Of a stretch of 64,000 bases of DNA, positions 54,141-63,335 are shown piece by piece (positions within the stretch are counted from its first letter, which is position 1; every line of letters begins with the position of its first letter). Origin of the DNA: an uncultured Acidobacteriota bacterium (GTDB taxonomy: Bacteria > Acidobacteriota > Vicinamibacteria > Vicinamibacterales > CAVVIG01); assembly GCA_902825985.1 (NCBI GenBank), contig CADEDC010000013.1, positions 1 through 64,000 on the forward strand, given 5' to 3'. Both the position numbers and the translations under genes were made by a program. The notes under the pieces were generated by a model. It was not told where the DNA came from. It was given only the letters and a program-made list of their open reading frames with translations, and searched no databases.

Positions 54141-56360
54141 GTGTCGCGCGCGTTCCGCTACAACCTGATTCTGGGGCTGGTCGCACTCGGGACCAGCCTG
54201 GCGGCGGTCGCCGGCTGGCGCTTCGCGAAGGCGTCGGCGCCGGTGAACGGGCCGATCGTGCTCGTGACGGTCGACTCCTTGCGCGCCGACCGGCTGCACA
54301 CCTACGGCAGCAGCCGCATCACGACACCGGCGCTCGACGCGCTGGCCGCCGACGGCGTCGTGTTCGAACGCGCCTTCGCGCACGTACCGCAAACGCTGCC
54401 GGCCCACGCGTCGCTGCTCTCCGGCCGCCTGCCCCCGGCGACGGGCGTGCGCGACAATGTCGGCTTCTCGATCCCCGAATCGCTGCGGCTGGTCTCCACG
54501 ATGCTGGCAGACCGCGGCTACGCCACGGGTGGCGTCGTCTCGTCCTTCGCGCTGCGCAGGGAGACCGGCCTCTCGAGAGGCTTCGCGTTCTTCGATGACG
54601 AGCTCACACCCGCCGATGCGTCGACGCCCGACGCCGGTCCCACCGTCGAGCGTGACGGCGCGGAATCCGAGAAGCGGGCGGAACGCTGGTTGAGCGGCGC
54701 CGGCACGTCGCGCGCCTTTCTGTTCCTGCACCTCAACGAGCCGCACGCGCCGTACGCCCCACCGGCGGCGAACCGGCCGGTGGACGGGCCCGGGCGTGAC
54801 GCCGCCTACGACGGTGAGGTCGCCTACACCGACGAACTGGTGGGCCGCCTGATCACCTACCTGAAGAAGCAGCAGCTCTACGACGAATCCACGATCATCG
54901 TCGTCGGCGACCACGGTGAGGGTCTCGGTGCCCATGGCGAACAGCAGCACGGCCTGCTGCTGTTCGACGACACGATCCGGGTGCCGTTGATCATCAAACA
55001 GGCCGGCTCGGTCGGCGGAGGACGCCGCGTCAGCGAGCTGGTCCAGCACGTCGACATCGTCCCGACGATTCTCGACCTGGCGAAGGCCCCGACTCCTGGC
55101 GGGCTGCCGGGCCGCTCGCTGCGGCCGCTGCTCGAGGGCACCGACACGCTGGGCCCCCGCATCGCTTACGCCGAGTCGCTCTTTCCCGCCCTGCAGTATG
55201 GCTGGCCGGCTGCCCACACCGTGACGGATGGCCGCTTCCGCTACGTCACCGGTCCGACGCCGGCGCTGTTCGACCTCGAGGCGGACCCGGAGAGTCACAC
55301 GGACGTGTCGGCCGCGCACCCGGAAGCACTGACGCGGCTGGCTCGGGCGCTCGACGAATTCATGAACGCGACTGAAGCACCAGGAGCCGTGCCGCTTGCC
55401 CTGTCGCAAGTCGAGCGCGAGCCGATGCTGGCGCTCGGCTATCTCGGCCCGCGGGCATTCGCCGCATCGCTCGGCGCGGAGCAGACGGCCGTGCCGGACG
55501 ATGCCGCGGCATTCGTCGATACCTATCGGGCCGCCATGACCGAGGTGTCGCGTCGGCGCTGGCTGCCGGCTATCGAGCGATTGCGGATGCTGGCGCGCGC
55601 CCACGCCGATCGCCCCGATGCCTGGGCCGCGCTCGGCGCCGTCGCCGAGCAAGCCGAGCGCCCGGAGGTTGCGGCCGAGGCGTATCGCCGGGTTCTCGTG
55701 TTGGTACCGGAAGCCGTCGACCTGCGCGCCCGCCTCGCCGACACGCTGCTGCGCGCGAGGCGCCTCGACGAATCGCAGGACGAGGCCGAGCTGATTGCCC
55801 AATCGGACGCCATACCAGCCCAGGCGCGAGGACTGGCGCTGCTTGCCCGCATCGCCGCCGCCAGGCACGACCCGGCGGCGGCACGAATCCAGGCCCAACG
55901 GCTGACCGATCTGGATCCGACGTCGCCCGTGCCGTCATACGTCGAAGGGCGGCTGCTGGTCGACCGCGGTCACCTCGAGGCAGCGCTCGCCGCACTCGAC
56001 CGCGCCGCCGAGCTCGCGCAGGAGACGCCGGTCGCCGACCTGCATCTGCTGCGCGGCGAAACGCTCGTCAAGCTCGATCGCCAGGCCGAAGGGGAAGACG
56101 CCTTCCTCACGGAGCTTCGGCAGTTCCCGGCCAGCTCGCGCGCGCATGTGGCGCTGGCAACTCTCTACCAGGGCCAGGGCCGGCTTCAGGAGGTCGTGCG
56201 CACGATGTCCAGGCTGACCGTGTTGCGGACCGCCGAGTCGTTCGAACTCGCGGCGCGCTCGTGGACCTCCTTCGGCGACCGCGCGCGGGCGGACGCCGCT
56301 CGCGCCGAGGCCGAGCGGCTGTTCTCGCCGGCCGCGGCAGCGCACCTCACGCAGCAGTAG
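54141..56360 (+). CDS. Membrane-anchored sulfatase-fold enzyme with Thr nucleophile and TPR tail
   Basis: A 739-residue protein: N-terminal anchor (9-29), alkaline-phosphatase/sulfatase domain (37-410) and TPR region (~460-735). Metal ligands are Asp45 (TVDSLRAD) and Asp/His in VVGDHGEGLGAHGEQQHG. The nucleophile position has Thr85 in TLPAHASLLSG instead of Cys-x-Pro-Ser-Arg, so no formylglycine can form. Thr is used by phospho-transferases of this superfamily such as LtaS and EptA, so a phosphodiester substrate is more likely than a sulfate ester. The start is GTG right after the upstream stop. Confidence 0.82.
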   Translation: MSRAFRYNLILGLVALGTSLAAVAGWRFAKASAPVNGPIVLVTVDSLRADRLHTYGSSRITTPALDALAADGVVFERAFAHVPQTLPAHASLLSGRLPPATGVRDNVGFSIPESLRLVSTMLADRGYATGGVVSSFALRRETGLSRGFAFFDDELTPADASTPDAGPTVERDGAESEKRAERWLSGAGTSRAFLFLHLNEPHAPYAPPAANRPVDGPGRDAAYDGEVAYTDELVGRLITYLKKQQLYDESTIIVVGDHGEGLGAHGEQQHGLLLFDDTIRVPLIIKQAGSVGGGRRVSELVQHVDIVPTILDLAKAPTPGGLPGRSLRPLLEGTDTLGPRIAYAESLFPALQYGWPAAHTVTDGRFRYVTGPTPALFDLEADPESHTDVSAAHPEALTRLARALDEFMNATEAPGAVPLALSQVEREPMLALGYLGPRAFAASLGAEQTAVPDDAAAFVDTYRAAMTEVSRRRWLPAIERLRMLARAHADRPDAWAALGAVAEQAERPEVAAEAYRRVLVLVPEAVDLRARLADTLLRARRLDESQDEAELIAQSDAIPAQARGLALLARIAAARHDPAAARIQAQRLTDLDPTSPVPSYVEGRLLVDRGHLEAALAALDRAAELAQETPVADLHLLRGETLVKLDRQAEGEDAFLTELRQFPASSRAHVALATLYQGQGRLQEVVRTMSRLTVLRTAESFELAARSWTSFGDRARADAARAEAERLFSPAAAAHLTQQ

Positions 56361-56403: not shown

Positions 56404-59400
56404 TCAGAACTGGAACTTCACGGTCACAAAGCCTCGAGTACCTTCCTCGAATAGATCGGCCATCCCGTAGCGCGGATCGTAGGCGTTGGCGCCATCGGGC
56501 GTCGCCAGGATCAGGCTGTTGACGTCGTAGCCCTGCCGCAGGTCCACGTCGGTCAGGTCGATGAACGACGAGGCGCGATCCGGGATGATCGCCCCCTTGT
56601 TCAGATAGTTGAAGATGTGCCGAGTCGTCTTCTGATTGAAGAGGTTCGTCACGTTCAGTTCGAACCGAAGGCGCCGGCTGGTGAGGAACCGCAGCTCGTG
56701 CGTCACGAGCAGGTCGGTGCGGGTGAGCGCGGGCGTGCGGCCCATGTCGCCACGGCCGTAGACGAACGCATCGGCGCTGTTGGTCGTCGTGACATAGGTC
56801 GAGATTGGCGTGCCGCTGCCGCCGTAGAAGAAGGCGCCAATCTGCGTGCCCCAGGGCAGGTCGTAGGAGCCGAACAGCTTCAGCACGTGCGGACGGTCGG
56901 TCGCGAGACGCCCGAGCACGTTGAGGTTGCCGCGGCTGTCCCAGAGCAGTTCGTCGATGTCCCACGCCCGGTTCACGTTGCCGCCCGGGCGGGCGATGCT
57001 GCCGGCCTGCTGCTGCGCCGTGGCCGACGTGCCGCCCGTCGTCGGCGTCGTCACTTCGTCCGACGACGCGAGACCGGCGTAGTTGCCATACAGACGGCTG
57101 AGCGTGTAGTTGGCGCTGAAGAACCAGCTGCCGGAGAAGCGGCGGTTGTAGCCGAGCTCGAGGGCGTCGTACTGACGCTTTGGCCGCGGAGTGGCCTGGC
57201 CGAGCGGCGTCGCCCCGTAGGGGAACTGGATGGCCGTCTGGCCGCGACCGGGGTTGCCAATGAGGTAGCCTTCCGAGCCCTGGGCGTTCAGGTAGCCGAT
57301 GTCCTCGATGGTCTCGAGCAGGTCGTTGTGGATGTAGCGGGCGGTCGCCACGGCGTTGTTGCCGACCTGATACTCGAGACCGCCGCTGACGCTCGACTGC
57401 TTCATCGGCCGGATGTCGGGATCGATGGCGTCGGCGAACGACGGCACGCGGCGATCGCGGCACGTGCCGGGCGTTACCCAGATGTCGTTGCCCGGCATGT
57501 TGTTCAGGTTCAGGCTGTTGATGTCCAGCGAGTTGAGGCCGCGGTAGTGGGTGCACCAGGTCTCGGCGCCGAACGAGCCGCGCGGCAGCTGGTACTTCGT
57601 CCAGTCATAGTACAGCCCCCAGCTGCCGAACACCTTCATCCGGCCATCGCCGTACACGTCGTAGGCGGCGCCCAGCCGGGGGGCCAGCTTGTCGGCGAAC
57701 GTGAAGTGGAACGCCGTCTCCTGGTAGTCCGGCCGGAAGGTCGGCACCTTCTCGTCTTCGGTGCGGATGCCGAGGTTGAGCGTCAGCTTGTTGCCAACCG
57801 TCCACTGGTCCTGGATGTACAGCGCGTGAATGTCCGACCCGGCCCGGTTCTGGATGCGGCGATCGTGCACCTCGTAGTAGCCGTAGGTGCCGCGTCCGGT
57901 CTGGCCGCCGAAGGCGAAGGAGGTGTTCCAGAAGATGTTGACGTAGCCTCCCGGGTAGTACGAGTTGATGTCGTTGACGACGTGCTGGTAGCCGTAGCCC
58001 GCCTTCAACGTGTGGAATCCGCCAAGGCTGAAGACGCGGTTGTAGTCGACATTGAAGTTCGCCCGCTTCGTCGTGTCGAAGTCGGTGATCTGCGCGCGCG
58101 GCGTGTTCGTCAGGCCGCTGGGTCCCTGCAGGCCAGCCGGCAGGACATTGTTCAGTGTCGTCGTCGCATTCCCGTACTCCCATGGCGTGGTCTGCGGGAT
58201 GCCGGTATCGGAGTAGCGGTCGTGGAAATAGCCGCCGCGGAAGCTGAGGAAGGAGTTGTCGGTGAGACTCACGTCGGCGGTGGCGCTGGTGTTCACCTGG
58301 TTGATCTCGTAGCCGCGGCCGACGTTCGGATCGATCGACGCCTTCGTCGTCAGCAACTGGTTCGCCTGCGGTCCGTCGTAGGCGCTGAGCGTGCCGGTCG
58401 CCGTGGTCGGCGTCCACAACGTCGACCAGTTGACGTTGACCCGGCGGCTGTTGTACGTCAGCTTGCCGAATGCCTGCTGGCGCCAGATGTCGCGGTCCAC
58501 CTCGCCGTTGGCGTCGGTGAAGCGGTAGTCGTTGGTGTTGAACTCGTTGCGCGGTGAGAACGAGCCGAAGAAGAACAGCCGATCCCTGACGATCGGGCCG
58601 CCGAGCGAACCGCCGAACTCGTTGAAGTTGCGCGTCTGCTCGTCGTCCTGGATGAAGAACGCCGTCCGCTCCTGCAGCGGCTCGAGCACCAGTCGCCTGA
58701 CCGGCGCGGCGGCCAGCGCGTTCCCCTCCCAGTAGTAGTGTCCCTCGCCGCGGAACACGTTGCCACCGCTCTTGGTCACGGCGCTGACCACGCCGCCGAG
58801 GGCGCCGCCGAACTCCGCCGAGATGCCCGAGGTCTTGACCTGGACTTCCTGAAGGTATTCGAACACCGTGTTCTGCCGCGACTGGCCGTTGACGAGCGAG
58901 TTCGTCACGATGCCGTCGACGGTGAACGAGTTCTCGGCGCCGCTGGCGCCGTTCACCTGCATGCCGCCCTCGATCTCACCCTGGTTGACCGACGGCGCCG
59001 TGAGGGCAATGGACTGGAACGTCCGGGTCTTCGGCAGCCGGTCGAACTGTTCCTCGCTGACGTTGTGCGCGACCAGCGTGCTGCGATTGTCGACGAGCGG
59101 GGCTGCCTCGGCGGTCACCTGCACGGTCTCCGTCACGGCGCCGACCTGCAACTGCGCGTCGAGCGTGAACGTGCGTCCGAGCGAGACGCTGATATCCTGC
59201 CGCTCCACACGGTTGAAGCCGCTCAGCTCGAACGCCACACGATAGCGTCCGGGATTGAGGTCGGGCGCGTTGTACTTGCCGGACGCATCGGTGACGAACG
59301 TCCGCGGCTCGCCGCTGGTCACGTTGGTGATGACGACGGTGACGCCGGGCATGGCGCCCCCTTGCTGATCGGTCACCGTACCAGTCAGGCTGCCGAACCG

Positions 59401-59481
59401 TTCCTGTGCCAGCGCATGGCCTGCGGCGCCGATAAACAGCGCGAGCAGACACACGCCCAGAATGCTCAATCGCATCCGCAT
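56404..59481 (-). CDS. Oar-like TonB-dependent outer-membrane receptor (paralogue 1)
   Basis: A 1025-residue outer-membrane protein with a signal peptide (cleavage after HALAQ near 26), a carboxypeptidase-regulatory domain (~28-115; GSLTGTVTDQQGGAMPGV), a plug (~130-260; VDGIVTNSLVNGQSRQNTVFEYLQEVQV) and a large barrel ending in the aromatic C-terminus VKFQF for BAM recognition. A classical TonB box is not obvious. It likely imports large or sugar/siderophore substrates, but the substrate is not readable. ATG 59481 is set by AAGGAG 6 nt upstream; an in-frame ATG at 59553 is not needed. It is a tandem paralogue of 59887-62967. Confidence 0.9.
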   Translation of the reverse strand: MRMRLSILGVCLLALFIGAAGHALAQERFGSLTGTVTDQQGGAMPGVTVVITNVTSGEPRTFVTDASGKYNAPDLNPGRYRVAFELSGFNRVERQDISVSLGRTFTLDAQLQVGAVTETVQVTAEAAPLVDNRSTLVAHNVSEEQFDRLPKTRTFQSIALTAPSVNQGEIEGGMQVNGASGAENSFTVDGIVTNSLVNGQSRQNTVFEYLQEVQVKTSGISAEFGGALGGVVSAVTKSGGNVFRGEGHYYWEGNALAAAPVRRLVLEPLQERTAFFIQDDEQTRNFNEFGGSLGGPIVRDRLFFFGSFSPRNEFNTNDYRFTDANGEVDRDIWRQQAFGKLTYNSRRVNVNWSTLWTPTTATGTLSAYDGPQANQLLTTKASIDPNVGRGYEINQVNTSATADVSLTDNSFLSFRGGYFHDRYSDTGIPQTTPWEYGNATTTLNNVLPAGLQGPSGLTNTPRAQITDFDTTKRANFNVDYNRVFSLGGFHTLKAGYGYQHVVNDINSYYPGGYVNIFWNTSFAFGGQTGRGTYGYYEVHDRRIQNRAGSDIHALYIQDQWTVGNKLTLNLGIRTEDEKVPTFRPDYQETAFHFTFADKLAPRLGAAYDVYGDGRMKVFGSWGLYYDWTKYQLPRGSFGAETWCTHYRGLNSLDINSLNLNNMPGNDIWVTPGTCRDRRVPSFADAIDPDIRPMKQSSVSGGLEYQVGNNAVATARYIHNDLLETIEDIGYLNAQGSEGYLIGNPGRGQTAIQFPYGATPLGQATPRPKRQYDALELGYNRRFSGSWFFSANYTLSRLYGNYAGLASSDEVTTPTTGGTSATAQQQAGSIARPGGNVNRAWDIDELLWDSRGNLNVLGRLATDRPHVLKLFGSYDLPWGTQIGAFFYGGSGTPISTYVTTTNSADAFVYGRGDMGRTPALTRTDLLVTHELRFLTSRRLRFELNVTNLFNQKTTRHIFNYLNKGAIIPDRASSFIDLTDVDLRQGYDVNSLILATPDGANAYDPRYGMADLFEEGTRGFVTVKFQF

Positions 59482-59499
59482 CGTGTGCTCCTTCGTGAT

Positions 59500-59580
59500 G
59501 GGAGAAGCCGACCGGGTTCTCCCGATAGGTGGGACCGAACGGTGATTCAGCATGACGAATCACCAAGAGGCTGGGCCGAA
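59500..59580 (-). promoter_or_regulatory. Structured 5' leader of TonB-receptor gene 1
   Basis: On the minus strand, from 59580: UUCGGCCC (59580-59573), 8 nt, hairpin 1 GGUGAUUC/GAAUCACC (8 bp, 8-nt loop GUCAUGCU; 59564-59541), 17 nt, hairpin 2 GGGAGAA/UUCUCCC (7 bp, 10-nt loop; 59523-59500), then 18 nt with AAGGAG to the ATG. The same architecture with identical inner spacing precedes the paralogous receptor gene. A TATTCT (59606-59601) upstream is a possible -10. Confidence 0.6.
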
Positions 59581-59814
59581 GCGACCGTCACAATGAATTC
59601 AGAATAGGTCGCTCACACGGCGGGAGGTGATTGGAAAGCGGATACTGCCGAGGGACTGCGGCGGGGGAGTTCGGGTTTTCGTATCGTCGGATCTGGTTCA
59701 GTCGTGTTTCAGAACTCAGCGCTCGCCGGCCTGGATGGCCGTCGTCGTTCGATGATCCGCTGGCCGTCTGACGGCACGAAGAACGGTCGAGCCCGACCCG
59801 CGCCTCCATGGAAC
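59581..59814. other. Gap upstream of the receptor leader with no gene seen
   Basis: Between the structured leader and the terminator of the paralogue I find no supported gene. A TATTCT (minus, 59606-59601) is a possible -10 for the receptor. Short frames here have no ribosome site. Confidence 0.4.
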
Positions 59815-59845
59815 AAAAAAAGGGGAGCCTCGCGGCTCCCCTTTT
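59815..59845 (-). terminator. Rho-independent terminator of TonB-receptor gene 2
   Basis: AAAAGGGGAGCC (59818-59829) and GGCTCCCCTTTT (59834-59845) pair perfectly over 12 bp with loop TCGC. On the minus strand a run of 7 T (59821-59815) closes it, so it ends the receptor gene at 59887-62967; on the plus strand only four T follow, so it may act both ways weakly. Confidence 0.9.
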
Positions 59846-59886
59846 CGTCGGTCAGTTCACTCCGGCGCAGCCGGAGCCGGCGAAGG

Positions 59887-62800
59887 TCAGAAGGTGAACT
59901 TCACCGTCACGAAGCCGCGCAGACCGTCCTCGAACAGGTCGGCCTGCCCGTAGCGCGGATCGTAGGCGCTGGCACCATCCGGGGACGCGAGGATCTTCTG
60001 GTTCACATCGAACCCCTGGCGCAGGTCGACGTCGCCGAGATCGATGTACGACGACGAGCGATCCGGAATGATCCCGCCCTTGTTGAGGAAGTTGTAGAGG
60101 TGCCGAGCCGTCTTCTGGTTGAAGATGTTCTGCACGTTCAGCTCGAAGCGCACGCGCCGGCTGCCGACCAGCCGCAGTTCGTGCGACAGGAGCATGTCGG
60201 TGCGGGTCAGCGCCGGCGTGCGGCCCATGTCGCCACGACCGTATACGATCATGTCCGCGGAGTTGGTCGTCGTCACATAGGTGGAGATCGGCGTGCCGCT
60301 TCCACCGTAGAAGAAGGCACCGATCTGCGTGCCGAACGGGAAGTCGTAGGAGCCGTACAGCTTGACGACGTTGGGCCGGTCCGTGGCCAGGCGACCGAGC
60401 ACGTCGACGTTGCCGCGGCTGTCCCACAGCAGTTCGTCAGCATCCCATGCGCGGTTCACGTTGCCGCCCGGGCGCGCGATGCTGCTGCCCGACTGCTGGG
60501 CCACGCTGGACCCGCCGCCGGTCGTCGGCGTCGAGATTTCGTCGGACGACGCGAGACCGGCGTAATTGCCGTAGAGGCGGCTGATCGTGTAGTTCGCGCT
60601 GAAGAACCAGGCGCCGGAGAAGCGGCGGTTGTAACCGAGCTCAAGGGCGTCGTACTGGCGCTTCGGGCGCGGCGTCGGCTGACCAAGCGGCGTCGCCGTG
60701 TAGGGGTACTGGATGCTCGTTACACCGCGACCGGGGTTGCTGATCAGGTAACCCTCGTCGCCGGCCGGCGTCAGGTAGCCGACGTCCTCGATGGTCTCGA
60801 GCAGGTCGTTGTGGACGTATCGCGCGGTGACCACGGAGGTGCGACCGAGCTGGTACTCCATGCCGCCCGACAGGCTCGACTGCTTCATCGGCCGCAGATC
60901 CGGGTCGATGGAATCGCCGAACGACGGGACGCGGCGGTCACGGCAGCCACCCGGGTTCGAGAACCACAGGTCGTTACCCGGCAGATTGCTCAGGTTCAGG
61001 CTGTTGATATCCAGCGAGTTCAGACCCCGATAGTAGATGCACCAGGTCTCGGCGCCGAACGAACCGCGCGGCAGTTCGTACTTCGTCCAGTCGTAGTAGA
61101 GCCCCCAGCTGCCGAACACCTTGAAGCGGCCGTCGCCGTGGACGTCGTAGGCCGCGCCGAGGCGAGGCGCCAGCTTGTCGGCGAAGGTGAAGTGGAAGGC
61201 GTTCTCCTGGTAGTCCGGACGGAACGTCGGGATCTTCTCGTCCTCCGTGCGAAGACCGAGGTTCAGGGTCAGCTTGTTGCCGATCGTCCACTGGTCCTGG
61301 ATGTAGAGGGCGTTGATGTCCGCACCCGCCTTGTTGGAAATGCGGCGATCGTTGACTTCGTAGTAGCCGTAGGTACCGCGGCCGGTCTGACCGCCGAACG
61401 TGAACGACCGATCCCAGAAGATGTTCACGTAGCCGCCGGGATAGTACGAATTGATGTCGTTGACGACGTGCTGGAACATGTAGCCGGCTTTCAACGTGTG
61501 GAACCCGCCCACGTTGAAGACGCGGTTGTAGTCGGCGTTGAACGACCAGCGCTTCGTCGTGTCGTAGTCGGTGATCTGCGCGCGCGGCGTGTTCGCGAAG
61601 TTGGCCGGTCCCTGCAGGGCTGCCGGGAGGACGTTGTTCAGCGTCGCCGTCGACACACCGTAGGTCCACGGCGTCGTCTGCGGGATGCCGGTGTCGGTGT
61701 AGCGGTCGTGGAACACGCCGCCCTTGAGGCTGAGGAACGAATTGTCCGTGAGGGTGATATCGGCCAGCAGGCTGGTGTTGACCTGGTTGCTCTCGTAGCC
61801 ACGGGCCTTGTTCGGGTCGAGGCTGGCGCGGGTGCGAAGGATCTCGTTCGCGGCAACACCGTCGTAGGCCGCGAGGATGCCGGTCTGCGTGGTCGGCGTC
61901 CACAGCGTCGACCAGTTCAGGTTCATCTTGCGCGTGGCCATCGTCAGCTTGCCGAAGGCCTGCTGCCGCCACGTGTTGCGTTCGACCGCGCCCGGGCCGT
62001 CGGTGAAGCTGTAGTCGTTGTTGCTGAATTCGTTGCGCGGTGAATACGACCCGTAGAAGAACAGCCGATCCTTGATGATGGGACCGCCGAGCGAACCGCC
62101 GAACTCCTGCTGGCGGCGCGTCTGCTCCGCATCCTGGATGTACGACGAAGTACGCTCATTCTGCGGCTCGAGCACGAGGCGCTTCACGGGTGCCGCCCAC
62201 AGGGCGTTGCCGTCGTAGTAGTAGTGCCCCTCGCCGCGGAACACATTGCCGCCGCTCTTGGTGACGGCGCTGACGACGCCGCCGAGCGCGCCGCCGAACT
62301 CCGCCGCGATGCCCGAGGTCTTGACCTGGACTTCCTGGAGGTATTCGAACACCGTGTTCTGCCGCGACTGGCCGTTGATGAGCGAGTTGGTGACGATGCC
62401 GTCGACCGTGAACGAGTTCTCGGCGCCGCTCGCGCCGTTCACCTGCATGCCGCCTTCGATTTCGCCCTGGTTCACCGACGGAGCGGTGAACGCGATGGAC
62501 TGGAACGAACGCGTCTTCGGCATCCGGTTGAACTCTTCCTCGGTGACGTTGTGCGCGATCAGCGTGCTGCGGTTGTCGACGAGCGGCGCGGCCTCGGCCG
62601 TCACCGACACCGTCTCCGACACGTTGCCGACCTGCAGCTGGGCGTCGAGCGTGAACGAGCGGCCGAGCACGACCAGGATGTCCTTGCGCTCGACCTTGTT
62701 GAAACCGCTGATCTCGAAGGTGACCGTGTACCGGCCCGGGTTCAGATCGGCGGCGTTGTACTTGCCGTTCGAATCGGTCACGAACGTGCGGGATTCAGCG

Positions 62801-62967
62801 GTGACCTGGTTGGTGATGACCACGGTCACGCCGGGCACGGCGCCGCCCTGCGAATCCGAGGCGACGCCGGACAGGGAACCGAACCGTTCCTGGGCGAGGG
62901 CGCTGCTCGTCGTGCCCAGCACGAGCGAAAGCAGACACACTCCGAGAATGCGTAAACGCATTCGCAT
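59887..62967 (-). CDS. Oar-like TonB-dependent outer-membrane receptor (paralogue 2)
   Basis: A 1026-residue paralogue of the downstream receptor with the same order: signal peptide (cleavage near 26, SALAQ), carboxypeptidase-regulatory domain (GSLSGVASDSQGGAVPGV), plug with VDGIVTNSLINGQSRQNTVF, barrel and C-terminal VKFTF. Long stretches are identical to paralogue 1 (for example SAVTKSGGNVFRGEGHYY), so the duplication is fairly recent or is homogenised by gene conversion. Differences cluster in a few loop regions of the barrel, as expected for substrate change. ATG 62967 is set by AAGGAG 8 nt upstream; a longer frame reaches 63084. Terminated at 59815-59845. Confidence 0.9.
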   Translation of the reverse strand: MRMRLRILGVCLLSLVLGTTSSALAQERFGSLSGVASDSQGGAVPGVTVVITNQVTAESRTFVTDSNGKYNAADLNPGRYTVTFEISGFNKVERKDILVVLGRSFTLDAQLQVGNVSETVSVTAEAAPLVDNRSTLIAHNVTEEEFNRMPKTRSFQSIAFTAPSVNQGEIEGGMQVNGASGAENSFTVDGIVTNSLINGQSRQNTVFEYLQEVQVKTSGIAAEFGGALGGVVSAVTKSGGNVFRGEGHYYYDGNALWAAPVKRLVLEPQNERTSSYIQDAEQTRRQQEFGGSLGGPIIKDRLFFYGSYSPRNEFSNNDYSFTDGPGAVERNTWRQQAFGKLTMATRKMNLNWSTLWTPTTQTGILAAYDGVAANEILRTRASLDPNKARGYESNQVNTSLLADITLTDNSFLSLKGGVFHDRYTDTGIPQTTPWTYGVSTATLNNVLPAALQGPANFANTPRAQITDYDTTKRWSFNADYNRVFNVGGFHTLKAGYMFQHVVNDINSYYPGGYVNIFWDRSFTFGGQTGRGTYGYYEVNDRRISNKAGADINALYIQDQWTIGNKLTLNLGLRTEDEKIPTFRPDYQENAFHFTFADKLAPRLGAAYDVHGDGRFKVFGSWGLYYDWTKYELPRGSFGAETWCIYYRGLNSLDINSLNLSNLPGNDLWFSNPGGCRDRRVPSFGDSIDPDLRPMKQSSLSGGMEYQLGRTSVVTARYVHNDLLETIEDVGYLTPAGDEGYLISNPGRGVTSIQYPYTATPLGQPTPRPKRQYDALELGYNRRFSGAWFFSANYTISRLYGNYAGLASSDEISTPTTGGGSSVAQQSGSSIARPGGNVNRAWDADELLWDSRGNVDVLGRLATDRPNVVKLYGSYDFPFGTQIGAFFYGGSGTPISTYVTTTNSADMIVYGRGDMGRTPALTRTDMLLSHELRLVGSRRVRFELNVQNIFNQKTARHLYNFLNKGGIIPDRSSSYIDLGDVDLRQGFDVNQKILASPDGASAYDPRYGQADLFEDGLRGFVTVKFTF

Positions 62968-62992
62968 TGGATATGCTCCTTGAATTGGTGAC

Positions 62993-63073
62993 GAGAGAGA
63001 CTCGGCCTGCTCCCTCAGCGAAGGTGACGTGCAGGCGGTTCCGCGTGACGAACCGCCACTTTCCGGGGCCGAA
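62993..63073 (-). promoter_or_regulatory. Structured 5' leader of TonB-receptor gene 2
   Basis: On the minus strand: UUCGGCCC (63073-63066), 8 nt, hairpin 1 GGCGGUUC/GAACCGCC (8 bp, 8-nt loop GUCACGCG; 63057-63034), 17 nt, hairpin 2 GAGGGAG/CUCUCUC (7 bp with one G-U, 10-nt loop; 63016-62993), then 25 nt with AAGGAG to the ATG. Spacings 8, 17 and loop lengths 8 and 10 equal those of leader 1, and two base pairs of hairpin 1 differ by compensatory change. Confidence 0.6.
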
Positions 63074-63335
63074 CTGCTATTCACGATGGATTAATGGTAG
63101 TTGTACGGTCGAGTCGACAGCCCAGGAAATAGGCCCGATCTGGGGTGTTTGCGGCTGAAATCCAAAATTTCGGAACGTACAGCCCAGATAGAGGCTCCGA
63201 GAGGACTCTATGGCCGTCTTTCATAGGTTTTTCGTTATGGTCGAGCCTTCAGCGGGTGCTCGACCGGCGGCGTTCGCGACGGACTCCCCGCCGCAGCCGG
63301 CGCCGACACGGGTCTGGTCGTCGTCGGCCGGCGGT
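63074..63335. other. Divergent gap between receptor gene 2 and the VWFA-related gene
   Basis: No gene seen in these 262 bp apart from a possible N-terminal extension of the next gene (ATG at 63237 in frame). It includes AT-rich patches (63160-63170, 63211-63240) that may hold promoters for both directions. No clear -10/-35 pair on the receptor side. Confidence 0.4.

Follow-up and report, generated by a model that had tools for sequence, protein, structure and literature searches.

Two tandem genes for Oar-like TonB-dependent receptors, on the minus strand of the window (the whole stretch of DNA analysed, 64,000 nucleotides from an uncultured member of the Acidobacteriota), are preceded by leaders that share a stem-loop, hairpin 1, whose pairing is kept across two compensatory base-pair changes. 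The sharing of this hairpin is sound and better than chance. No other searched genome has the leader, so that it looks like a local, lineage-specific mRNA leader rather than a widespread new RNA class. Each genome in this group of Acidobacteriota encodes Oar-like receptors by the dozen (the one studied here has 77 matching stretches), and a literature search found nothing published on how individual receptors of this kind are controlled in such bacteria. Should the duplicates indeed share a leader conserved for its RNA structure, control after transcription would be indicated, a small claim that concerns one duplication.

The two loci contain the following elements, given in window coordinates:

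56404..59481, minus strand: receptor gene A (Pfam PF13620, PF25183, PF00593, PF07715)
59887..62967, minus strand: receptor gene B, tandem paralogue of gene A (Pfam)
59488..59493, minus strand: Shine-Dalgarno sequence AAGGAG of gene A (from sequence)
62976..62981, minus strand: Shine-Dalgarno sequence AAGGAG of gene B (from sequence)
59500..59523, minus strand: hairpin 2 of leader A, GGGAGAA-10 nt-UUCUCCC, 7 bp, loop CCCGGUCGGC
62993..63016, minus strand: hairpin 2 of leader B, GAGGGAG-10 nt-CUCUCUC, 7 bp with one G-U
59541..59564, minus strand: hairpin 1 of leader A, GGUGAUUC-GUCAUGCU-GAAUCACC, 8 bp, loop GUCAUGCU
63034..63057, minus strand: hairpin 1 of leader B, GGCGGUUC-GUCACGCG-GAACCGCC, 8 bp, loop GUCACGCG
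59573..59580, minus strand: conserved block UUCGGCCC of leader A (sequence alignment)
63066..63073, minus strand: conserved block UUCGGCCC of leader B (sequence alignment)
59601..59606, minus strand: weak candidate -10 element TATTCT of gene A, at an aligned position common to B
63094..63099, minus strand: weak candidate -10 element TACCAT of gene B, at the same offset as in A

The product of gene A (MRMRLSILGVCLL...) combines a CarboxypepD_reg domain, a plug and an Oar-like beta-barrel of the TonB-dependent receptor family, and the proteins of genes A and B are 80% identical. Between the tandem genes, 3' of gene B, lies a strong intrinsic-terminator-like hairpin (GGGGAGCC...GGCTCCCC) with the T-run TTTTTTT, at about 59813-59846, which comes from direct reading of the sequence and is absent from the terminator scan output. 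Because of this hairpin and T-run after gene B, transcription of gene A probably starts from a separate promoter. Convergent with gene A, a sulfatase domain fused to TPR repeats is encoded at 54141-56360 on the plus strand.

The leaders align over 90 columns with no gaps, and both run in the order UUCGGCCC, 8 nt, hairpin 1, 17 nt, hairpin 2, AAGGAG, ATG, which agrees with the coordinates, element order and spacings of 8 and 17 given in a first-pass annotation of this DNA. The UUCGGCCC block (UUCGGCC) and most of the hairpin-1 loop (GUCAYGC) are kept between leaders, and substitutions affect 9 of 30 stem positions and 32 of 60 unpaired ones. Hairpin 1, which starts about 85-90 nt 5' of the start codon, has an 8-bp stem and an 8-nt loop in both leaders and is predicted to form in both, with a mean pair probability of 0.84-1.00 in the thermodynamic ensemble. 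As the annotation had it, two of its pairs differ with pairing kept: 2 of 8 pairs have changed, both in a compensatory manner and with no pair broken, and all four stem substitutions sit there. That a hairpin is kept despite sequence drift suggests that the RNA shape matters.

Hairpin 2 had been described as differing at most positions while still pairing. It can indeed be drawn in both leaders, but the description was overstated, because no more than 3 of its 7 pairs differ, two by double changes and one by A-U turning into G-U. Folding predicts its formation in leader A alone. Specifically, its pair probability is 0.93-0.98 in leader A and 0.00-0.05 in leader B, where it stays unformed because its strands pair otherwise; in the fold of leader B that ends at the start codon, the bases of the hairpin-2 loop are taken up by pairing with the UUCGGCC block. 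Stems 1 and 2 together hold four double changes and no broken pair among 15, in a comparison of two sequences only. The total folding energy is ordinary for both leaders (z of -0.84 and -1.09), and receptor leaders generally display no fold-energy enrichment (mean z -0.3). The proposed selection on the RNA fold is thus supported for hairpin 1, with its compensatory pairs and its predicted formation in both leaders; the case for hairpin 2 is weaker, as that hairpin is predicted not to form in one of them. The leader observation of the first-pass annotation is partly confirmed. Its interpretation is supported in part: selection on the fold has support, and the proposed cis-regulation through a ligand, a protein or a small RNA stays hypothetical.

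The kept pairing could also be residual homology of the duplication, combined with luck and the picking of the most striking spot in 64 kb. Compatible with this are the basis of the covariation, which is a single pair of leaders from one duplication, the prediction that hairpin 2 does not form in B, and a shuffle control that was reached by 32 of 500 shuffles and has little power with two rows. However, the same number of substitutions placed randomly kept all pairs with P 0.016 for stem 1 and 0.0096 for stem 2, and a neutral simulation of diverging, ungapped 105-nt leaders, run 20,000 times, never yielded an 8-bp Watson-Crick hairpin common to both leaders and carrying two double changes, and yielded a common 7-bp hairpin (at most one G-U) once, chance figures for which it is relevant that the site was picked by eye out of the 64 kb. 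Additionally, the four-fold sites of genes A and B are 39% diverged, so time amply sufficed for leader drift. We therefore give luck only a slight chance. When the pairing partner is shifted by 1 to 3 columns, pairing drops from 100% to 47-63%.

Our analysis tentatively favors, at somewhat below even confidence, a lineage-specific 5'-UTR stem-loop that tunes how stable or how well translated the mRNA of an outer-membrane protein is, or presents its loop to a small RNA (sRNA) or protein. The leaders would be homologous 5' UTRs, each about 110 nt long, copied along with the receptor genes in the duplication, and hairpin 1 would have been retained as an RNA structure. Most probably it would protect the transcript from decay and keep the Shine-Dalgarno region open, like in E. 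coli ompA, and the GUCAYGC loop and the UUCGGCC block may also form a landing site to which a small RNA or a protein binds. That hairpin 1 is transcribed, and that it affects transcript stability or translation, is what we infer here. In the own genome, 5 of 37 receptor genes (A and B included) and 0 of 62 other genes have a perfect upstream hairpin with a stem of 8 bp or longer, unrelated in sequence; leaving out A and B, the count is 3 of 35 in a small sample. Such hairpins of unrelated sequence at receptor genes fit a generic structural role, which is only suggestive.

Stabilizers of the ompA type sit at the 5' end of the mRNA, and the fact that hairpin 1 may not be at the 5' end argues against a stabilizer. 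The ompA 5' UTR of E. coli, which is cited as an mRNA stabilizer (PMC7509114), resembles the present leaders in that the mRNA encodes an outer-membrane protein and has a stem-loop in its leader, with the Shine-Dalgarno sequence outside the stems. In contrast, there is no sequence relation between the two, and stabilizing activity and a terminal hairpin position are features of ompA. RNA structure in a receptor leader is also found at shuA, where a FourU-type RNA thermometer is reported (PMC3660397); as a difference, no hairpin here pairs with the Shine-Dalgarno sequence in both leaders. A search for a Shine-Dalgarno-covering stem common to both leaders, as in an RNA thermometer, found only partial, differing pairings. 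The cobalamin riboswitch of btuB is likewise a structured leader of a TonB-dependent receptor gene, whereas the leader here is far shorter and has no Rfam match.

Instead of acting as a generic stem-loop, the leader might regulate in cis by responding to a ligand or an sRNA, and UUCGGCC might form a pseudoknot with the hairpin-2 loop. UCGGCC can pair with the hairpin-2 loop GGUCGG in A or GGCCGA in B (6 and 7 pairs), but this pairing was spotted after the fact, random loops would allow it with a chance of 0.04 and 0.008 per loop, and its register is off by one column between leaders. A precedent exists in Caulobacter, where the mRNA of the TonB-dependent receptor chvT is controlled by the sRNA ChvR (PMC6237742). 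Both cases concern the 5' part of an mRNA for a TonB-dependent receptor, with the difference that chvT is regulated by a trans-acting sRNA and no sRNA is known for the present leaders. Against a responsive RNA, riboswitch classes are usually more widespread, and neither an Rfam match nor homologous leaders in the genomes searched were found, which leaves this reading rather unlikely. In its most specific form, an undescribed and narrowly distributed cis-regulatory RNA in which hairpin 1, the GUCAYGC loop and the pairing of UUCGGCC with the hairpin-2 loop control the duplicated Oar-like receptors of one Acidobacteriota lineage, it would be improbable. Attenuation, which the annotation had listed among the possible modes of control, is unlikely because neither hairpin has a U-run after it, in either leader, as a terminator would.

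The main rival to the 5'-UTR stem-loop is a DNA operator: the 24-bp interrupted palindrome would bind a dimeric transcription factor controlling both genes, and the RNA hairpin would be incidental. The half-sites GGYGRTTC are symmetric around a conserved center, a position near a promoter is usual for operators, and allowing up to 2 mismatches the palindrome has 65 sites in the own genome versus 21 for a reversed control of unmatched composition. Yet only two of these sites are free of mismatches (the two described here) and one has 1 mismatch, the rest having 2. Furthermore, an operator should retain its base identity, and here the half-sites have changed jointly in two pairs; the palindrome would also sit downstream of the candidate -10 element. 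An operator is accordingly possible but unlikely.

If transcription started just 3' of the candidate -10 element of gene A, both hairpins would be transcribed. The -10 proposal itself is weak, since the motif is not enriched over shuffles or upstream of other receptors and no consensus promoter was found in either leader. A sigma-54 promoter inside hairpin 1 (TGG...GC) was rejected for its spacing of 11 instead of 10. A coding explanation was considered as well, given in-frame extensions in both leaders (ORFs starting at 59553 and 63084), and was rejected: the aligned leaders are in different frames relative to their start codons, a TGA interrupts the shared frame of A, and the differences follow no clear three-base period (14, 16, 11).

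Beyond the two loci, the search for further homologous leaders with covarying stems, which the first-pass annotation had envisaged, came up empty at all three levels: own genome, order and sampled phylum. Specifically, a covariance model of both leaders found only these two in the own genome, no credible further copy in 162 genomes of the order and nothing credible in 11 relatives with looser filters, and across 396 phylum genomes a hairpin pattern with one mismatch gave no other match whose arms pair. Weak covariance-model matches elsewhere (25 bits or less) were taken as chance: the best spans the 3' end of a receptor gene (L042/L065), and two others adjoin unrelated genes (L145 and L146, the latter without the stems). 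Among the one-mismatch pattern matches in other phylum genomes, the arms are unpaired outside the pattern-fixed bases, and those of a viral-contig match (L116) do not pair either. The 28 other receptor loci examined in the own genome lack such a leader. An RNA class requires several independent homologues, and only two tandem copies were found. The annotation's remark that the leader belongs to no known class holds, as no family of Rfam 15, including the cobalamin riboswitch, gave a covariance-model match up to E 5, and the literature search found no description of such a leader.

Orthologues of the receptors with 52-73% protein identity are present in the same family and order, and hairpin 1 is missing at the equivalent place in every orthologue whose upstream region was examined, so that this receptor family does not need it. 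The same-genus genome compared contains no close orthologue (best match 37% identity). The upstream regions of other receptor genes carry elements of their own. One same-family orthologue without hairpin 1 (L045) carries in its leader, about 100 nt ahead of the start of the receptor gene, a 9-bp inverted repeat, GCAAGCGAG...CTCGCTTGC, whose loop measures about 36 nt. Four orthologues from three or four genera (L037, L038, L040, L047) have in common the element GGTACG(C/T)A-N-(T/C)TTCC, located about 63 to 127 nt upstream of ATG and similar to a -24/-12 (sigma-54) promoter with CC replacing GC, and GGCAC-N6-TGC lies upstream of more distant receptors (L054, L056, L057). Finally, receptor genes of one genus (L058, L061, L062, L063) share TTCGTCCCAYATT, which L063 has in variant form, at a distance of about 100-190 nt from the start; their ribosome-binding region around CTTTCCAAAGGAGG is very conserved.
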